This document shows, piece after piece, positions 47,431-55,764 of a DNA stretch of 64,000 nucleotides. The stretch comes from Terriglobia bacterium (GTDB lineage: Bacteria; Acidobacteriota; Terriglobia; Terriglobales; Acidobacteriaceae), in NCBI GenBank assembly GCA_020072645.1, contig JAIQGK010000009.1, positions 1-64,000 of the forward strand, written 5' to 3'. The translations under genes and the position numbers were made by a program. The notes under the pieces are model-generated. The model made no database searches. It was not told the origin of the DNA and saw nothing but the letters and a program-made list of their open reading frames with translations. Position 1 is the stretch's first letter; each line of letters begins with the position of its first letter.

Positions 47431-47565
47431 GATCGCGCGTGATCGCCGTGATCGTGCGTGATCGCCGTGATCGGGAAAAGCAAATGCTCACCACGGAGGC
47501 GCGGAGACGCGAAGAACAGCCAATAGCGAAAGATCAAATGCACGGCGCATGCGATCGGATCGATC
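47431..47565. repeat. cluster of nine GATC sites with two 18-bp direct repeats
   Basis: GATC occurs at 47431, 47441, 47450, 47460, 47469, 47532, 47553, 47558 and 47562. The first five lie within two 18-bp direct repeats (47437-47454, 47456-47473) and are spaced 9-10 bases, close to one helical turn. The cluster is 52 bases upstream of the receptor start. Confidence 0.6.
47487..47521. repeat. dispersed repeat, CCACGGAGGCGCGGAGACGC type
   Basis: CACCACGGAGGCGCGGAGA and the following bases recur almost exactly at 54073-54108 (both end in AGAACAGCCAA). Confidence 0.65.
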
Positions 47566-48146: not shown

Positions 48147-49328
48147 CTAAAGCTTTCCGGATTTGACGATAAAAGCCTGTCGGCCGGACTCGACGGACTG
48201 AAGTGCCAAAACAGCTACCAATTTTCGTGGGATCCCATAAATAACGATGCCTTCGCCCTCTGTCCGGCCTAGCTGCGAGGGAGCTCTGCCTTTCAGGTTT
48301 GCAACATAGACGGTGTCTGCGGTCTCTTCCACAATTTTCAATCGCTCTGAACAAAACACCTTTCCATTGGTTGGGCTCGGAAGCGCTGAAGATTTTTCTT
48401 GCGACTTGGCGGTTGGAAACACTGCTGGAGCCGTGGCAACTGAGACCGCGGAACAGCCCCCCATTGCCTGCGGTTCACCTAATTTCAGCAACTCAATGGG
48501 AACTCCCGCTTGAGCTGCGTCGGAGGTAAAAATTAGCACCGCATCTCGCGTTTCGCCCAAATAACCGCCGCCGCGTGCCTCTGGAATAAAGGAATAAAAA
48601 CCGTATCCGAATTGATAAGCCGCAAAGATATATATGGACAGGATAGGTAAAAGCGCCGCGATCCATGGCCATCGACTGAACTGCCCGCCTTTTTGCGATG
48701 CTTTTTGGGCGCCGAACGTGATCACAGAAATAATTCCCCACGACATTAGATACAAGCAGAAAGGGAGTCTGATTGCAGATGATAAATGGTCATATGCGCC
48801 CGGTGCTTTCCACAAAGTCACTGAGCAGAGAGTTATGACAAAACAAAGTACTAGGAGATTGTGGACAAATAGCCAAGGATGGCTGGGACGCAAAGCGCCT
48901 TCAATAACAATCCAACTCACTGCCACAATAATGCCGGCGAGCGACCATAAGACTCCGTTGTTATCCAGTACACGCAGAGGAAAAAACATCAATACTAGAC
49001 AGAAAACGAAACCGGTAGTAATCATCACAAGGACGCCCGACATTTGGGTGCGCCTACGGGATGTTCGCATTGCGGCCCAGTATCCTGTGGCTGGCGCTAT
49101 TAGAAGTGCAGGGGTCAAGAAGAACAACCCGCCTGCGAGTATATTTCGAACCCGAAATAGCTCCACGGCGGACACCGGGAGCCCAAGTTGGTCAAAGCGG
49201 GCCGTCAGAATTAAGAGCCCTGTTGCATAGCATAGCCCCGCATAGATGATCAAAAGTTCAGAGGCCACCTTGATCTGATCCGAAATTGAGATTTTTGAAC
49301 CCGCCGATGTTTCCTGACTTAATGCCAC
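48147..49328 (-). CDS. hypothetical polytopic membrane protein
   Basis: 393 residues. GTG start with TGGAGGTG about seven bases upstream. About seven or eight hydrophobic segments occur in residues 20-245, then a periplasmic or soluble C-terminal domain of about 150 residues (DAVLIFTSDAAQAGVPIELLKL, KVFCSERLKIVEETADTVYVANLKG) that may be a small beta domain. It is more A/T-rich than the genes to its left. No family recognised. It is divergent from the DGQHR gene with 79-148 bp between starts. Confidence 0.62.
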   Translation of the reverse strand: MALSQETSAGSKISISDQIKVASELLIIYAGLCYATGLLILTARFDQLGLPVSAVELFRVRNILAGGLFFLTPALLIAPATGYWAAMRTSRRRTQMSGVLVMITTGFVFCLVLMFFPLRVLDNNGVLWSLAGIIVAVSWIVIEGALRPSHPWLFVHNLLVLCFVITLCSVTLWKAPGAYDHLSSAIRLPFCLYLMSWGIISVITFGAQKASQKGGQFSRWPWIAALLPILSIYIFAAYQFGYGFYSFIPEARGGGYLGETRDAVLIFTSDAAQAGVPIELLKLGEPQAMGGCSAVSVATAPAVFPTAKSQEKSSALPSPTNGKVFCSERLKIVEETADTVYVANLKGRAPSQLGRTEGEGIVIYGIPRKLVAVLALQSVESGRQAFIVKSGKL

Positions 49329-49476
49329 AACACACCTCCAAGCTAACGGATGACTAATATCACAATCTACAGACCGCTGGTATGGAAGGACTCGCTTTTA
49401 CACGCATTTGAATGTTATTTGGGAAGCTATGGCGATGGCTGCTAAAATGCTGGTTTCGAACGGGAGCAAAGAGCGC

Positions 49477-50448
49477 ATGGCCGTGAAGAAAACACCTTCT
49501 TACCCAGCACTGTTGTTGGCTCAGAATAAACATCGATTTTATTTTTCCACAATCCCAGTAGATGACTTGTATCCATGTTGTTTTGTCGCTCGACGGCAAG
49601 AAGATCCTCAGCAGGGATTTCAGCGCGCACTGTCGGAAGAAAGGGCGGATGACATCAGCCGTTATCTCTCGTCAGGAAATGGCTCGATTCCTACGAATGT
49701 AGTGCTGTCAGCTCAGCCGGAATCTCTTCTCAGTTACAATCCACGGTCGAAAACGCTGTCCTTTGTTCGGGTGCCACGCGCATTCCTTGTTCTTGATGGT
49801 CAACACCGCCTATGGGGCTACTCCAAATGTCCGGTCCGACACCGTGTCCCTGTTGCGATCTACGAATCGCTGGGGCGTTCCGAAGAAGCCAAACTCTTCA
49901 TAGACATAAATACCAATCAGCGGGGCGTCCCTGCGGCTCTCTTGCTTGACATTAAACAACTTGCCGATATGGAGACAGCCAAAGAGAGTCTTTTAAGATC
50001 ATTCTTCGACAAATTGCAGACCGACCCATCATCTTCGCTTCACGGGCGACTCAGTCCGGCACACTCGACGCCGAATAAAATTTCGCGTGTCACGTTCAAT
50101 CGTGCGGTTGGCGCCGCTCTAAGCAGCGAGGTGCTGCTGTCTCTTAAGGAAGATGATATTTATCGCCTGCTTCGAAACTACGTAAATGCGTTTGATGCAG
50201 AACTGCCAGAGAAAGCCACCTTGATCAGAGCAGCCTACTTTGAAGCCATTTTTGATATGTTCGATGAAGTTGCTCGTGCAACTATGGCACGTGTAAAGAA
50301 TCTCAAGCAGGATTCGTTGCAAGAAATGATTCGTCCCATCACTCATTTGGATTTTGGCGGGCGTGGGAAGTTAACGAAAAAGGCTTATACAGAGTTGATG
50401 CAAGGTGCTTTTCGCAAGAGTGTAGCAGTTTCACCGGACATGCTGTGA
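49477..50448 (+). CDS. DGQHR-domain (DndB-like) protein
   Basis: 323 residues from the ATG at 49477 (GGGAG about ten bases upstream; earlier in-frame ATGs at 49429 and 49448 lack good sites). The defining DGQHR is at 107-111 within FLVLDGQHRLWG, followed by AKLFIDINTNQRGVP (139-153), as in DndB/DpdB-like ParB/sulfiredoxin-fold proteins. Such proteins act in or near DNA-modification and defence loci. No dnd, dpd or restriction genes are seen here, so this is a stand-alone form. It overlaps the next gene by GTGA. Confidence 0.8.
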   Translation: MAVKKTPSYPALLLAQNKHRFYFSTIPVDDLYPCCFVARRQEDPQQGFQRALSEERADDISRYLSSGNGSIPTNVVLSAQPESLLSYNPRSKTLSFVRVPRAFLVLDGQHRLWGYSKCPVRHRVPVAIYESLGRSEEAKLFIDINTNQRGVPAALLLDIKQLADMETAKESLLRSFFDKLQTDPSSSLHGRLSPAHSTPNKISRVTFNRAVGAALSSEVLLSLKEDDIYRLLRNYVNAFDAELPEKATLIRAAYFEAIFDMFDEVARATMARVKNLKQDSLQEMIRPITHLDFGGRGKLTKKAYTELMQGAFRKSVAVSPDML

Positions 50449-51458
50449 TTGCACAAGCAACAGGTTGGCAGCGGTTAAGAGCAATGTCGCTGGATACAGT
50501 CCCCAGCGGCACCCGTGTTTACCATGTCAGGGCCGTGCCGCTTAATTTGTGGCGCGACAAAGGATCGTTCACGGTCATTTCTTGCACTAAGAATCAAGTT
50601 AGCATAGAAGCTGCGGCATCTGAAATCGGGAGTGCATTGCTGGCAGATACGGAATATCTCCTGGATCATGCCGCTGAACATCAGGCTTCTCTTCGCGATG
50701 CTGTAGCTGTGCAAAATTGGCATAGTCCGGCTTGGATGCTCGTGACCCTTTATTATTGGGGATTTTTTTCTGCGCTGGCCCTTACTCGCATTAGCGGCTC
50801 TTCAACCTGGTTTCTGGACAAAAAGGCGTTAAATCAATTCAAAACCTTAGCAGGTTCGGCAGTGCAGCCGGGCGCAGGAGCGCTCTATCTGGTGGTGGAT
50901 GCATACGTCAGTGCAACAGTGCGTAGAATGTCATTGCGCCCAAGCAAATCTCAATTGCATGATGCATCTTGGACAGTTGCGATGAGGCTTATCACTGAAA
51001 TTGTTGAACACTGCGACGGAAACGTCAATCTGTTTGAATATCGATTCTGGTCAGCTTTGAAGCGTATCGGGGACTTGTGGGGAGCTGACTGGGCAAGTAA
51101 GCTGAGAAACGCGATCAACTACCGTCCCGGGTACGGCTATCGGGAAGTAATCAAAAATAAAGGAATTGATAGCATCCGCTATTTACGTCAGCAGACGCCA
51201 ATTGCCTTTCATGATCTCGTCGATGTGCTCGAGAGCGAAACAGCGGCGATTCGCTTGGGGTCCGACCCAAGAAGCGATATCGCTTTAGCCAGTCGCTTGT
51301 TAGGTTTGTTTTCGATCTCCCTCGCCATGATAGTCCAAACACTGCATGCCGAAGTGCTCATTAGGCAATCAGGTGATATCCGGTGGGAAGGCCTCCGAAA
51401 CTCGTTTTTCTCGGCCCGGTGCAGTACTCCATCAGGGGGCATATGGCCATTTGCGTAG
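50445..51458 (+). CDS. unrecognised partner of the DGQHR protein, possible HEPN-like
   Basis: 337 residues starting at GTG inside the upstream stop (GTGA), which implies translational coupling. It is helical, with a first helix (HSPAWMLVTLYYWGFFSALAL, about 93-112) and a later motif LRNAINYRPGYGYREV (about 220-235) that resemble the helix and Arg-x-Asn/His-like region of HEPN nucleases or nucleotidyl-transferase partners. This match is weak and is inference. No catalytic residues are certain. Both genes of the pair share the A/T-richer composition. Confidence 0.6.
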   Translation: MIAQATGWQRLRAMSLDTVPSGTRVYHVRAVPLNLWRDKGSFTVISCTKNQVSIEAAASEIGSALLADTEYLLDHAAEHQASLRDAVAVQNWHSPAWMLVTLYYWGFFSALALTRISGSSTWFLDKKALNQFKTLAGSAVQPGAGALYLVVDAYVSATVRRMSLRPSKSQLHDASWTVAMRLITEIVEHCDGNVNLFEYRFWSALKRIGDLWGADWASKLRNAINYRPGYGYREVIKNKGIDSIRYLRQQTPIAFHDLVDVLESETAAIRLGSDPRSDIALASRLLGLFSISLAMIVQTLHAEVLIRQSGDIRWEGLRNSFFSARCSTPSGGIWPFA

Positions 51459-51500: not shown

Positions 51501-51705
51501 TTAGTGCGTCATCGCCCCCGGCCCGCCTCCGCCCTTCGAGGCTTTTTTCATCAGCAGGATCAGGGGCAGGCAGGCGGCGAACATGATCGCCAGAAGAAAG
51601 AAGACGTCGACGTAGCCCATCATGGACGCCTGCTGCTGGACCATGCTAAACAATCCGACGGAGACTTGTGCGGCGGCGATGACCGAGGCTGCTGCTGCGA
51701 GACTT
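51501..51705 (-). pseudogene. 3'-terminal remnant of a DHA2-type MFS transporter gene
   Basis: The minus-strand translation ends in MMGYVDVFFLLAIMFAA, then a Lys/Gly-rich tail and MTH-stop, closely matching the last about 65 residues of the intact transporter at 54208-55764. Differences are mostly third-position or conservative, so the fragment derives from a diverged homologue. Similarity ends at about 51705, where unrelated DNA begins; there is no start. Confidence 0.75.
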
Positions 51706-52746: not shown

Positions 52747-53075
52747 GCGAATCAAAAAACCATTTGCCGCAGATTTCGCAGATGAGCGCAGATCAAAAGC
52801 AAAAAGAATTTGGCCGCGAATTAACGCGAATCAACACGAACCGGGCGGATTGCCAGAAATGCCAAGCAAGAGCACTTAGCAATTAGCCATTGGCAATTAG
52901 CCGGAAACCCCAAACCCGTTCACCACAAAGAACACAAAGGAACACAAAGGGATGCGGGTCGGGAAAGCGGGACATCAGGAAATCAGGGGAACCTTTATCA
53001 CTGATTGACGCTGATGATACTGATCGGCAAAGCAAAACCTTTAACGACAGAGGACACAGAGGAACACTGAGGCAG
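52747..53075. repeat. block of degenerate dispersed repeats
   Basis: Successive fragments: CCGCAGATTTCGCAGATGAGCG (52768-52790), GCGAATTAACGCGAATCAACACG (52812-52840), CAATTAGCCATTGGCAATTAGCC (52880-52902), CACCACAAAGAACACAAAGGAACACAAAGG in shorter runs (52920-52950), CACTGATTGACGCTGATGATACTGATC (52999-53025) and GACAGAGGACACAGAGGAACACTGAGG (53044-53070). No gene is seen in 52745-53134. Confidence 0.6.
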
Positions 53076-53086
53076 GGCCCCATTCG

Positions 53087-53119
53087 CCCATTCACACGCA
53101 AAACCGGCGCGTGAATGGG
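53087..53119. repeat. palindrome related to 30996-31026
   Basis: CCCATTCACACGC and GCGCGTGAATGGG pair with one mismatch around a 7-base loop. The core CCATTCAC...GTGAATGG is shared with the perfect palindrome between the GNAT and cytochrome genes. Confidence 0.55.
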
Positions 53120-53140
53120 AACCCTGGAGGAAACGTGATT

Positions 53141-53869
53141 ATGTTGACGAAGGACGAATTGACAGCAGCGATTGTGGCGAGCGCGGCGAAGCTGGGGCGC
53201 GCACCGAGCCGCACGGAATTGATGAAACAGGCCGGCGTGTCACAGCGAAACATAAGAAAGCATTTTGGAACCTACCATCGCGCCCTGGAGACGTGTGGCA
53301 TAGCAAGACATGGGGTTGGGCAAAAAGTGGGGATGGAAGAGCTGTTCCAGGATTGGGCGGGAATTGCGCGCAGGCTAAAAAAGGTGCCAAGCCTGGCTGA
53401 CTACGAACAGATGAGCAAGTACAGCGTAAGCCCGCTGCTGAGACGGTGTGGCACATGGAACAGCGTGCCGGACGCGATGAAGTCGCATGCCGGTGAGCAT
53501 GGCCTGGCCGAGGAGTACAAAGACGTTTGGGATGTAGTTGAACGGAGGACCGGCCGCCAGAGTAACGTACCCAGACCGTGCGCACCGCAGTGTGTACCGA
53601 AGATCATGGAGGACCGGCCGATGTATGGGCCGTTGTTACAGGGAGGGCCGCTGGTGTTTGCGCCGACGAACGAGGCCGGGGTGCTTTACCTTTTTGGGGC
53701 CATGTCTGAACGGCTGGGCTTTCTGGTCTTGATGGTACAGGCGGGATTTCCGGACTGCGAGGCGATGCGCGTGGTGGCAGAAAACCGGCTGCAGCCGGTA
53801 AAAATTGAATTGGAATACCAAAGCCGCAATTTTCTGAAACACATGCATGACTTAAGGGCTGCGACATGA
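53141..53869 (+). CDS. homing-endonuclease-associated (HNH) repeat protein
   Basis: About 242 residues from the ATG at 53141 (GGAGG ten bases upstream; an in-frame GTG at 53135 is also possible). Two tandem copies of the HNH-associated DNA-binding repeat are visible: KLGRAPSRTELMKQAGVS...FGTYHRALETCGI (about 10-55) and LKKVPSLADYEQMSKY...CGTWNSVPDAM (about 70-108). The C-terminal about 100 residues (LVFAPTNEAGVLYLFGAMSE, PDCEAMRVV) have no HNH or other nuclease motif I can name. Similar stand-alone proteins occur in Terriglobia. Confidence 0.68.
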   Translation: MLTKDELTAAIVASAAKLGRAPSRTELMKQAGVSQRNIRKHFGTYHRALETCGIARHGVGQKVGMEELFQDWAGIARRLKKVPSLADYEQMSKYSVSPLLRRCGTWNSVPDAMKSHAGEHGLAEEYKDVWDVVERRTGRQSNVPRPCAPQCVPKIMEDRPMYGPLLQGGPLVFAPTNEAGVLYLFGAMSERLGFLVLMVQAGFPDCEAMRVVAENRLQPVKIELEYQSRNFLKHMHDLRAAT

Positions 53870-53947
53870 TTGTGTGCTGGGAACATAACTGGCCGGAATG
53901 TCCGCTGGAGGTGCTGGAGCTGAAGTCGCTGGTGAAGCAATACGCAA

Positions 53948-54172
53948 ACCTTACCACTGATTTGCACTGATAACACTGATCAGAATTGAAGATCAAAAAC
54001 TTTTCACCACAAAGGACACGAAGGATCACAAAGAGGACTGGGGGAGATCGCTGGAATCGAAAAACCAAAATCTACCACGGAGGCGCGGAGACGCGGAGAA
54101 CAGCCAAAATCGGAAATCGAAAACCAAGAACTTTTACCACAGAGGACACGAAGGAACACGGAGGAAGAGCCA
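53948..54172. repeat. second block of dispersed repeats before the DHA2 gene
   Basis: Fragments include CTTACCACTGATTTGCACTG (53948-53967), TTTCACCACAAAGGACACGA (54000-54019), ACCACGGAGGCGCGGAGACG (54075-54094, near-identical to 47487) and TTACCACAGAGGACACGAAG (54136-54155). All are variants of ACCAC(A/G)(A/G)AGG followed by ACAC/GGAGG units. No gene is seen in 53870-54207. Confidence 0.62.
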
Positions 54173-54207: not shown

Positions 54208-55764
54208 TTAGTGCGCCATCGCGCCCGGCCCGCCTCCGCCTTTGGGGGCTTTCTTCATGATCAGAATCAGCGGCAGGCAGGCGGCGAACATGATTGCCAG
54301 AAGAAAGAAGACGTCGACATAGCCCATCATGGCGGCCTGTTGCTGGACCATGCCGAAGAGTCCGGCAGCGGCTTGCTTGGTGGCGGTGGCGGCGTCCATG
54401 CCGCGGGCCATGAAAGCGGCTTTCATCTGGGCCATCATGTTTTGCGCCAGCGGATTGTAAGGAGTTATGTTTGCGCCCAGAGTATTGACGTGGACCTGAG
54501 CATGGCGCGATGAAATTGTGGTCACGCTGGCAATGCCAATACTGGCGCCTATGTTGCGCATCAGGTTGAACAGGCTGGTGGCGTTGCCCATTTGCTCTTT
54601 GGGAATCGGGCCGTTGGTGAGCGTGGTGAGCGGCACAAAGAGCAGTCCCATGGACGAGCCCTGCAAAAGCTGCGGCCAGAAGATGTCCCAGTAACCGGCG
54701 TTCAGGTTCAGCCTGGAGAGCTGCCAGATGCTGAATGACGCGATGATCAAGCCGGCGGCCAGTAATTTGCGCGCCTCGATTTTTCCCATGAGAATGCCGA
54801 CGATCGGCATAAACAGGAACGACCCCAGGCCGCGTGGAAGCATGGCCATGCCCGCTTCAAGGGCGGAATATCCCATGAGCGTTTGCAGCCACAGCGGAAG
54901 CAAGACCGTGCTGCCATAGAGAACGAATCCCAGCACGGTCATAAGAAAGACACCGGTGGCATAGGTGCGATTTTTGAAGATCCTGAGCTGCACTACGGGA
55001 TGGTCGGCGACAAGTTCGCGGACCAGGAAGAACACGAACCCGACGACGCAGAGAATGACCAGAATAAGGATGAAGTGCGAGCCGAACCAGTCTTCTTCCT
55101 GGCCTTTATCGAGCATGATCTGCAGCGCGCCGATGCCCAGCGCAAGATAGCCGATGCCCCAGTAATCAATGCCGCCTTCTCCGCGCTTGATGTATGGCGG
55201 GTCGTGAATGAACAGCAAGGCCATAATCACGGCCGCGATCCCGATAGGAATGTTGATATAGAAAAGCCAGCGCCAGCTATAGCTTTCAGTAATCCAGCCG
55301 CCGAGCACCGGCCCGAGCATGGGTGCCACAACAATGCCCAGCGCCCAAAATGCCATGGCTTTGGCGCGCTTCTCCGGCGGGAAAGCTTCCATCAGGATGG
55401 CTTGCGAGAGCGGTTGCAGGCCTCCGCCGGTTGCGCCCTGGAAAACGCGGAAAATGATCAGCAGCGGTAGGTTCGGCGCGATGCCGCATAGAAAAGAGAA
55501 AACCGTGAATCCGCCAACCGATACCAGAAGAATATTGCGGCGGCCAAAATAATTACCGAGCCATCCCGTAAGCGGCAGCACAATCGCGTTGGCGACCAGA
55601 TAAGAAGTCAGGACCCAGGTTGCCTCTTCCGGAGTCACGGAAAGGCTGCCGGCAATATGCTGCAGCGACACGTTCACCACCGTGGTGTCCAGCACCTCCA
55701 TAAAGGTGCCAAGCATCACTGAAATAGCGATGATCCACGGATTGATTGCCGGCTTAGATTCCAT
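54208..55764 (-). CDS. DHA2-family multidrug MFS permease (EmrB/QacA type)
   Basis: 518 residues with 14 predicted membrane segments. DHA2 features are LDTTVVNVSLQHIAGSL (about 25-41), motif A GWLGNYFGRRNILLVS (about 67-82), motif C GGWITESYSWRWLFYINIP, and a periplasmic Ala/Met-rich region before the last helix. With the HlyD and TolC genes upstream in the same direction it forms a three-component drug efflux system. A 146-bp spacer from the HlyD gene holds AT-rich CAATTGGCAATTAGTATTTGG repeats. Confidence 0.92.
   Translation of the reverse strand: MESKPAINPWIIAISVMLGTFMEVLDTTVVNVSLQHIAGSLSVTPEEATWVLTSYLVANAIVLPLTGWLGNYFGRRNILLVSVGGFTVFSFLCGIAPNLPLLIIFRVFQGATGGGLQPLSQAILMEAFPPEKRAKAMAFWALGIVVAPMLGPVLGGWITESYSWRWLFYINIPIGIAAVIMALLFIHDPPYIKRGEGGIDYWGIGYLALGIGALQIMLDKGQEEDWFGSHFILILVILCVVGFVFFLVRELVADHPVVQLRIFKNRTYATGVFLMTVLGFVLYGSTVLLPLWLQTLMGYSALEAGMAMLPRGLGSFLFMPIVGILMGKIEARKLLAAGLIIASFSIWQLSRLNLNAGYWDIFWPQLLQGSSMGLLFVPLTTLTNGPIPKEQMGNATSLFNLMRNIGASIGIASVTTISSRHAQVHVNTLGANITPYNPLAQNMMAQMKAAFMARGMDAATATKQAAAGLFGMVQQQAAMMGYVDVFFLLAIMFAACLPLILIMKKAPKGGGGPGAMAH

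Follow-up and report, generated by a model that had tools for sequence, protein, structure and literature searches.

A conserved gene pair coding for a DGQHR-domain protein and a putatively HEPN-like partner in a Terriglobia bacterium: a candidate mobile conflict module

We describe a two-gene locus in a 64,000-nt stretch of DNA from a Terriglobia bacterium (assembly GCA_020072645.1, contig JAIQGK010000009.1, positions 1 to 64,000; hereafter the window), in which a gene for a DGQHR-domain protein is directly followed by a gene for a helical partner protein, and we examine how firmly the two belong together, what they may be and what they may do. The DGQHR-domain gene lies on the forward strand at 49477..50448, as judged from its score against TIGR03187 and from a predicted model with ParB/sulfiredoxin (Srx) fold. 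Its open reading frame (ORF) extends upstream to a TTG (ORF 49408-50448), but the ATG at 49477 is the better start, because four of the five other rows of alignment A1 begin near this position and because confidence of the predicted model drops before residue 30 (block means 61-70). The DGQHR codons (49795..49809, +) specify residues 130-134 counted from the TTG and 107-111 counted from the ATG, the latter in agreement with the initial annotation, a reading of the window made before any database search. The second motif reported there, FIDINTNQRG (49897..49926, +, within the same gene), and the GTGA overlap with a 337-residue partner could likewise be located. This partner gene occupies 50445..51458 (+); its GTG start (50445-50447) overlaps the TGA stop of the DGQHR gene (50446-50448), giving the shared GTGA at 50445..50448 (+). 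The pair resides, as noted initially, in an A/T-richer stretch, with a G+C content of 49.7% compared to 55.1% for the whole window. A scan for promoters and terminators gave values within one standard deviation of shuffled sequences.

The initial annotation had set beforehand that the two genes should co-occur in other genomes, and they do. Scanning species genomes with the DGQHR alignment, whose six seed sequences all have a partner, yielded 130 relatives, and the analysis was continued with the best 80; in 75 of these 80 loci the partner is located directly downstream of the DGQHR gene. Since the seeds were all paired and the best 80 of 130 relatives were considered, this fraction describes the present subfamily and not DGQHR proteins at large. 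Counted within the 75 are one locus with both genes interrupted (L061) and one with a short partner frame (L065), while the five unpaired loci comprise three contig ends (L047, L082, L083), one truncated DGQHR gene (L087) and one locus lacking a partner (L042). Spacing is tight, with the first start codon of the partner at most 30 nt from the DGQHR stop in 74 of the 75 pairs; in 26 of the 75 its position is -4 or -1. Linkage also holds in the reverse direction: a partner profile recovered six copies outside the model; a DGQHR gene immediately precedes five of them, and the sixth is truncated by the start of its contig. In five of these six, identity to the rows of the model does not exceed 44%, the remaining one reaches 94%, and one (G249) was already known before this search. 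Another of the six, a very divergent pair from the window's own family (L142:302-2112), displays an ATGA overlap and a partner of 276 aa in which the motif residues are kept.

The same arrangement is found on mobile elements. Seven of twelve viral loci carry the pair, one of them (L094) letter for letter as in the genome locus L045; the others comprise two distant DGQHR proteins (L100, L101), a contig edge (L096), a partner remnant (L093) and a locus with no partner (L095). From tblastn searches with the DGQHR protein, relatives were obtained in 36 plasmid and 8 phage records, and in all four plasmid or phage records examined a partner homologue is the next gene. The partner from Providencia was found by tblastn in 19 plasmid records, 15 from Providencia and 4 from Burkholderia, with the same numbers per genus for the DGQHR protein. 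The corresponding search with the window partner found nothing in plasmids or phages, which is probably due to strong divergence among partners. When single proteins were used for pattern scans, no partner relatives appeared in genomes and no DGQHR relatives in viral contigs, and complete genomes of E. coli contained no DNA match to the Providencia pair. A partner-only viral match (L005) and G065 (L004) were dropped, as they showed neither a partner nor a DGQHR profile match at E <= 1.

In terms of distribution, each sample contains few copies of the module (in about 1% of its genomes), and these are widely scattered: with the partner profile, matches were obtained in 3 of 347 genomes from the phylum of the window, in 4 of 398 around a Bradyrhizobium and in 2 of 198 around a Runella, the genome at the centre being counted each time. 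Paired loci occur in Pseudomonadota, Nitrospirota, Bacteroidota, Acidobacteriota, Actinomycetota, Bacillota, Cyanobacteria, Verrucomicrobiota, Planctomycetota, Gemmatimonadota, Fibrobacterota and SAR324, with phylum names read from record titles and several records being metagenome bins. Distance matrices of DGQHR protein and partner correlate with r 0.74 over 77 loci and with r 0.79 if the 13 rows nearest the window are removed, values that in each case none of 5000 permutations reached; shared ancestry contributes to this correlation, which consequently speaks for joint travel of the genes and not for contact of the proteins. In close pairs both genes are under purifying selection, the three partner pairs of smallest distance having a ratio of nonsynonymous to synonymous substitution rates of about 0.08-0.18 (our own division of the computed values), and the partner is the more divergent of the two. 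The DGQHR protein of the window is 67% identical to the copy from its own family and, over best segments, 58% identical to that of Bradyrhizobium, 56% to that of Simplicispira and 43% to that of Granulicella. Since the Bradyrhizobium and Simplicispira identities exceed that of Granulicella and the window is acidobacterial, these sequence comparisons suggest horizontal transfer. Genome linkage, reverse linkage, spacing and distance correlation together rule out a chance pairing, and it is close to certain that the two genes constitute a conserved module.

The DGQHR protein passes TIGR03187 with 133.2 bits at a curated cut-off of 58.85. Among the 77 homologues G131, Q132, H133 and R134 (TTG numbering) are unchanged in all and D130 in 76, and in the second motif F164, D166, N168 and Q171 are unchanged throughout; we read the DGQHR motif as the probable equivalent of ParB box II and of the sulfiredoxin signature, and FIDINTNQRG as that of ParB box III. 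Its predicted model is of high confidence (predicted local distance difference test, pLDDT, 91.1) and resembles the ParB-type proteins PadC (Z 9.8), Noc (9.6), ParB (up to 9.6) and KorB (within 8-10), followed by sulfiredoxin (Z mostly 6.6-7.3, others down to 5.5), SspE (Z 4.0) and BrxU (Z 3.7), while Foldseek returned a pNOB8-like ParB as best match (E 2.4e-4). The predicted model and the invariant GQHR and FxDxNxxQ residues are thus in line with a ParB/sulfiredoxin fold. This agrees with published work that ties DGQHR to DUF262 and to the ParB/Srx fold (PMC4619093) and describes a DndB-like protein as binding both ATP and GTP (PMC12704722). Given this model, we consider it very likely that the DGQHR protein acts as a nucleotide switch of the ParB type.

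A link to DNA marking, which had been considered plausible initially since DGQHR proteins are known from phosphorothioate and deazaguanine systems, could not be upheld. The protein reaches only 17.3 of the 328 bits required by the DndB model TIGR03233 and 39.1 of the 300 bits required by the DpdB model NF041060, and it fails the dnd-associated DGQHR model. The source genome contains one DGQHR match, no match to DndC and, for DpdA, a sub-threshold match alone (26.3 vs 200 bits), so that no dnd or dpd marker exceeds its cut-off there. In the window, 42 of the 47 other listed ORFs of at least 100 aa were scanned, and no dnd, dpd or restriction model matched at E <= 1e-5, bearing out the initial remark that no such gene is nearby; the matches of these ORFs are to three generic PADLOC models. 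DNA marking as part of Dnd or Dpd is therefore ruled out for the source genome by the DndB and DpdB scores and the DndC and DpdA searches.

For the partner, a family of 77 members was compiled. Searches of these 77, and of the window protein alone, against Pfam, NCBIfam and PADLOC gave scattered weak matches of single members, none of them usable, with PF05168 (1 of 77, E 0.13) and a HepT-like family (1 of 77, E 0.092) standing amid chance-level matches; in PHROGs, one unnamed family matches 2 of the 77 (E 2.5e-4). The partner accordingly matches no known non-defence family; had it proved to be one, the reading of the initial annotation would have been refuted by its own terms. Its AlphaFold2 model is confident (pLDDT 91.9, predicted template modelling score 0.92) and contains a beta insertion. 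The top structural match is the HEPN domain of sacsin with Z 6.3 over 135 residues at 4.1 A, 2.1 Z above the next rows; a Z of about 6 can be reached by unrelated helical proteins, so that this match is suggestive only. The rows at Z 4.2 are Roquin ROQ, a taste receptor and a designed filament, and Roquin ROQ, which we take to contain a HEPN domain, thereby ties with unrelated rows. The HEPN toxin RnlA gave Z 3.2.

Conservation singles out a possible active site. W97, Y103, Y104, H172, W176, R221 and Y226 do not vary among the 77 partners, position 68 is D or E in all of them and N222 is kept in 76. In the window the first of these segments, W97....YY103-104..FF (50733..50768, +), lies on helix 95-116 of the partner model, H172...W176 (50958..50972, +) on helix 171-189 between helix 2 and the R-N helix, and R221-N-A-I-N-Y226 (51105..51122, +) on helix 216-225 and the loop that follows, at the position of the HEPN Rx4-6H motif with Tyr replacing His. 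According to a 2013 HEPN survey (PMC3710099), AF0298-like HEPN-T and AbiV proteins carry this arrangement, for which an alternative active site has been proposed. In the predicted structure, R221-N-x-x-(N)-Y226 with the upstream H172 as alternative conserved His corresponds to this HEPN-T/AbiV layout.

Several results weigh against a HEPN-like effector. The Z of the sacsin match does not reach 8, the level under which the tool advises caution (13 for helical bundles), and the rows at Z 4.2 include unrelated proteins, the taste receptor among them. Foldseek with the partner model found nothing in the PDB at E <= 0.001, a fold search of BFVD likewise nothing at E <= 0.001, and a profile search of PDB sequences with the partner returned no HEPN protein. 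In hhalign comparisons with small samples (26 of 30 PF05168 loci and 8 AbiV loci), the partner scored 9.95 against PF05168 (shuffled mean 11.0) and 9.76 against AbiV (10.8), which is at noise level and therefore does not demonstrate homology to HEPN by sequence; with neither this comparison nor the PDB sequence search in support, sequence proof of a partner-HEPN homology failed. The partner is also no classical HEPN RNase, since Rx4-6H is absent and Y226 takes the place of His in all 77 members. The weak HEPN hint of the initial annotation gains from the tentative structural likeness to sacsin and from the invariant R-N-x-x-(N)-Y with its upstream His, whereas the lack of the classical motif and the Foldseek and profile results speak against it. 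The same absence of Rx4-6H and of sequence matches to HEPN would fit a partner that is a catalytically dead HEPN-like protein or an unrelated helical RNA- or protein-binding regulator, with the pair regulating host or plasmid genes; the survey (PMC3710099) regards many HEPN proteins of the MtlR type as probably lacking catalytic activity. We regard such a regulator as distinctly improbable, because seven polar or aromatic positions invariant over 77 divergent sequences are expected of an active or binding site, and the scattered distribution in about 1% of sampled genomes also speaks against it. From model and residues taken together, the partner is probably HEPN-like.

The genomic neighbourhood gives hints about function. 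At E <= 1e-10, 115 pair-adjacent genes from 16 loci match 93 PADLOC models, compared to 10 models matched by 128 control genes. The 16 loci come from 19 searched genomes and are those whose contigs had sufficient room for a control (L042, which has no pair, excluded), the controls comprise 16 stretches of 14 kb each from these contigs, and two L061 rows which represent fragments of the pair itself were removed. It should be kept in mind that these tables count models and not genes, that models are redundant and that one dnd operon supplies many of them, which makes the comparison a lead and not a test. When ten neighbour proteins were scanned one by one, five had no PADLOC model at E <= 1e-10.

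Some neighbours recur. A DNA methyltransferase cluster is found in 6 of 88 loci, a NotI-type endonuclease cluster in 4 of 88 and a second cluster, which we read as probable cytosine methyltransferases, in 4 of 88, names having been taken from database records and matching models; the methyltransferase and NotI-type clusters occur together in 4 of 88. On a 10-kb Acinetobacter plasmid (L006:427-4303), methyltransferase, NotI-family endonuclease and the pair form one four-gene run, and the clusters of the former two recur in L043, L050 and L071. A type III methyltransferase lies upstream of the pair in L018 (same cluster in L019), a DrmB-like neighbour is present in L034, and in Acinetobacter populi (L072:1934-8933) a dnd operon with DndB, DndC, a DndD-sized gene and DndE sits directly upstream. 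We infer DndD from size and position; one DndD member was seen, the gene not being named. The four-gene run, the recurring clusters, the type III methyltransferase and the dnd genes could be explained if the pair were an accessory of restriction-modification or DNA-modification systems, in which the DGQHR protein would read methylation or phosphorothioate and the partner would help or control the nuclease. However, sequence clustering places the main methyltransferase cluster in no more than 6 of 88 loci and the second one in 4, and none was found among the 42 other window ORFs scanned, which renders an accessory role improbable.

The pair is further observed on plasmids, one of them typed conjugative, and on the filamentous Pseudomonas phage PfAC19, beside its repressor; on a Providencia plasmid (L007:4781-9277) it sits between umuD and umuC. 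For the plasmid rows listed, and for several of the phage rows, the annotation of the two genes reads solely 'DGQHR domain-containing protein' and 'hypothetical protein', respectively. Most Pf accessory genes are described as related to anti-phage defence in part of PMC11878078, where 'TA; PfsE' is listed for PfAC19 with the genes unnamed. This entry and a tightly spaced two-gene operon on plasmids and a Pf phage would also be consistent with a module of the toxin-antitoxin or addiction type by which plasmids and prophages are stabilised, the partner acting as toxin and the DGQHR protein as NTP (nucleoside triphosphate)-dependent antitoxin and autoregulator with no dedicated phage sensing, all the more so as DndB is claimed to be an ATP-dependent repressor (PMC10853773). 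Both genes are, by general knowledge, large relative to a typical toxin-antitoxin pair, and the pair occurs on genome contigs of many sizes, several exceeding 300 kb, and is thus not restricted to small mobile elements. We therefore consider a toxin-antitoxin module unlikely, though worth keeping in mind.

Compared with known systems, the pair appears related in design to several and identical to none. PD-T4-2 consists of a DUF262 ParB-type protein with HEPN, and DUF262 ParB-type domains also occur with nucleases, according to PMC10952713; the likeness lies in the combination of a ParB-type protein with a HEPN domain, putatively HEPN-like in our case, and the difference in the DGQHR/DndB-type domain, with DUF262 unmatched at E <= 1. 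PF18735 is absent among 25 of the 26 Pfam families listed for the partner, which does not place the pair in PD-T4-2, and no PADLOC model named PD-T4-2 matched, whether PADLOC holds one being unchecked. In SspE and GmrSD/BrxU a ParB/Srx-type domain with NTPase activity is linked to a nuclease (PMC10952713), and SspE and BrxU are also among the structural matches of the DGQHR model; those proteins, however, carry DUF1524/HNH, which neither protein of the pair contains at E <= 1, and the pair has a separate helical partner instead, so that it does not belong to GmrSD/SspE. DndB and DpdB share the DGQHR domain family, but the DGQHR protein described here remains far below both curated cut-offs and its source genome is devoid of a DndC match and of a DpdA match above threshold. 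In comparison to AF0298-like HEPN-T and AbiV, the partner is longer, has the beta insertion and Tyr at R+5, and shows no detected sequence similarity to the sets tested. HEPN genes of the MAE_28990 and RiboL-PSP families beside a ParB-type gene were noted in 2013 (PMC3710099); these families retain Rx4-6H according to Table 1 of that survey, and the list of Pfam matches of the partner contains no such family. By analogy, the pair may be comparable to PD-T4-2 and SspE in its possible working while being a member of neither. The pair was not met in the available parts of the literature on DGQHR, HEPN and ParB-type/DUF262 systems, and an earlier description elsewhere is possible.

Immediately after the pair in the window, on the reverse strand, lies a 181-nt truncated duplicate of the 3' end of a gene for a 518-aa transporter (51501..51681, 85% identity to 54208-54388), which borders the pair and is context outside the module. 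The two transporter 3' ends (51501-51681 and 54208-54388) bracket 2.5 kb with two ORFs and several short repeats. Dispersed 51-57-nt repeats of the ACCACAGAGGACACGAAGGAACAC type flank the pair on both sides (52895-54159 and 47475-47531), so that both the truncated copy and the repeat fields (52.9-54.2 kb, 47.5 kb) mentioned in the initial annotation were recovered. An ORF at 53111-53866 (+) contains two homing-endonuclease-associated repeat stretches (PF18780, 63.9 bits), and its matches include no nuclease family. Divergently oriented from the pair, a 393-aa protein that appears membrane-like by sequence is encoded at 48147-49328 (-), is likewise A/T-richer (50.4% G+C) and has no Pfam, NCBIfam or PADLOC family over cut-off.

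We propose, at about an even chance and on the basis of predicted structures, that the two genes form a mobile conflict module, in which an NTP-gated DGQHR switch and a HEPN-like effector act together against phages or plasmids; our best guess, made by analogy, is that the pair is directed at phages or other mobile elements. The DGQHR protein would sense a cue of infection or foreign DNA and change its state upon NTP binding or hydrolysis, and it would restrain its obligate partner until the latter is released or activated. The partner, a HEPN-like effector with a non-classical R-N-x-x-N-Y and alternative-His site, would then attack or bind RNA and thereby halt growth of the phage or plasmid, with or without cell death. 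This model presumes that the two proteins form a complex, that NTP gates the switch, that the partner is an active effector with the target named, and that the pair serves in defence. Besides the difficulties of the HEPN assignment, two observations count against it: the full-length DGQHR relative L042 has no partner at its locus or anywhere across its genome, and the neighbours listed are for the most part ordinary genes or genes with no assignment, which holds for the window too, so that any enrichment near defence genes would be modest. In a more far-reaching and clearly more tentative version, the pair would be a distinct two-gene immune system, present in many bacterial phyla, in which a ParB-type DGQHR switch directly gates a new family of HEPN-like ribonucleases that use Arg, an upstream His and Tyr in place of the classical Rx4-6H site. 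If this were true, stand-alone DGQHR proteins would be nucleotide-controlled regulators of an RNA-targeting effector and not parts of DNA-marking systems.

With this analysis, an orphan DGQHR subfamily gains a fixed partner, predicted folds for both proteins and named candidate residues, and a further kind of ParB-plus-HEPN-like pairing may be added to those already described. Should the proposed mechanism hold, an RNA-directed effector would here be under the control of a nucleotide switch that is known above all for its part in chromosome segregation.

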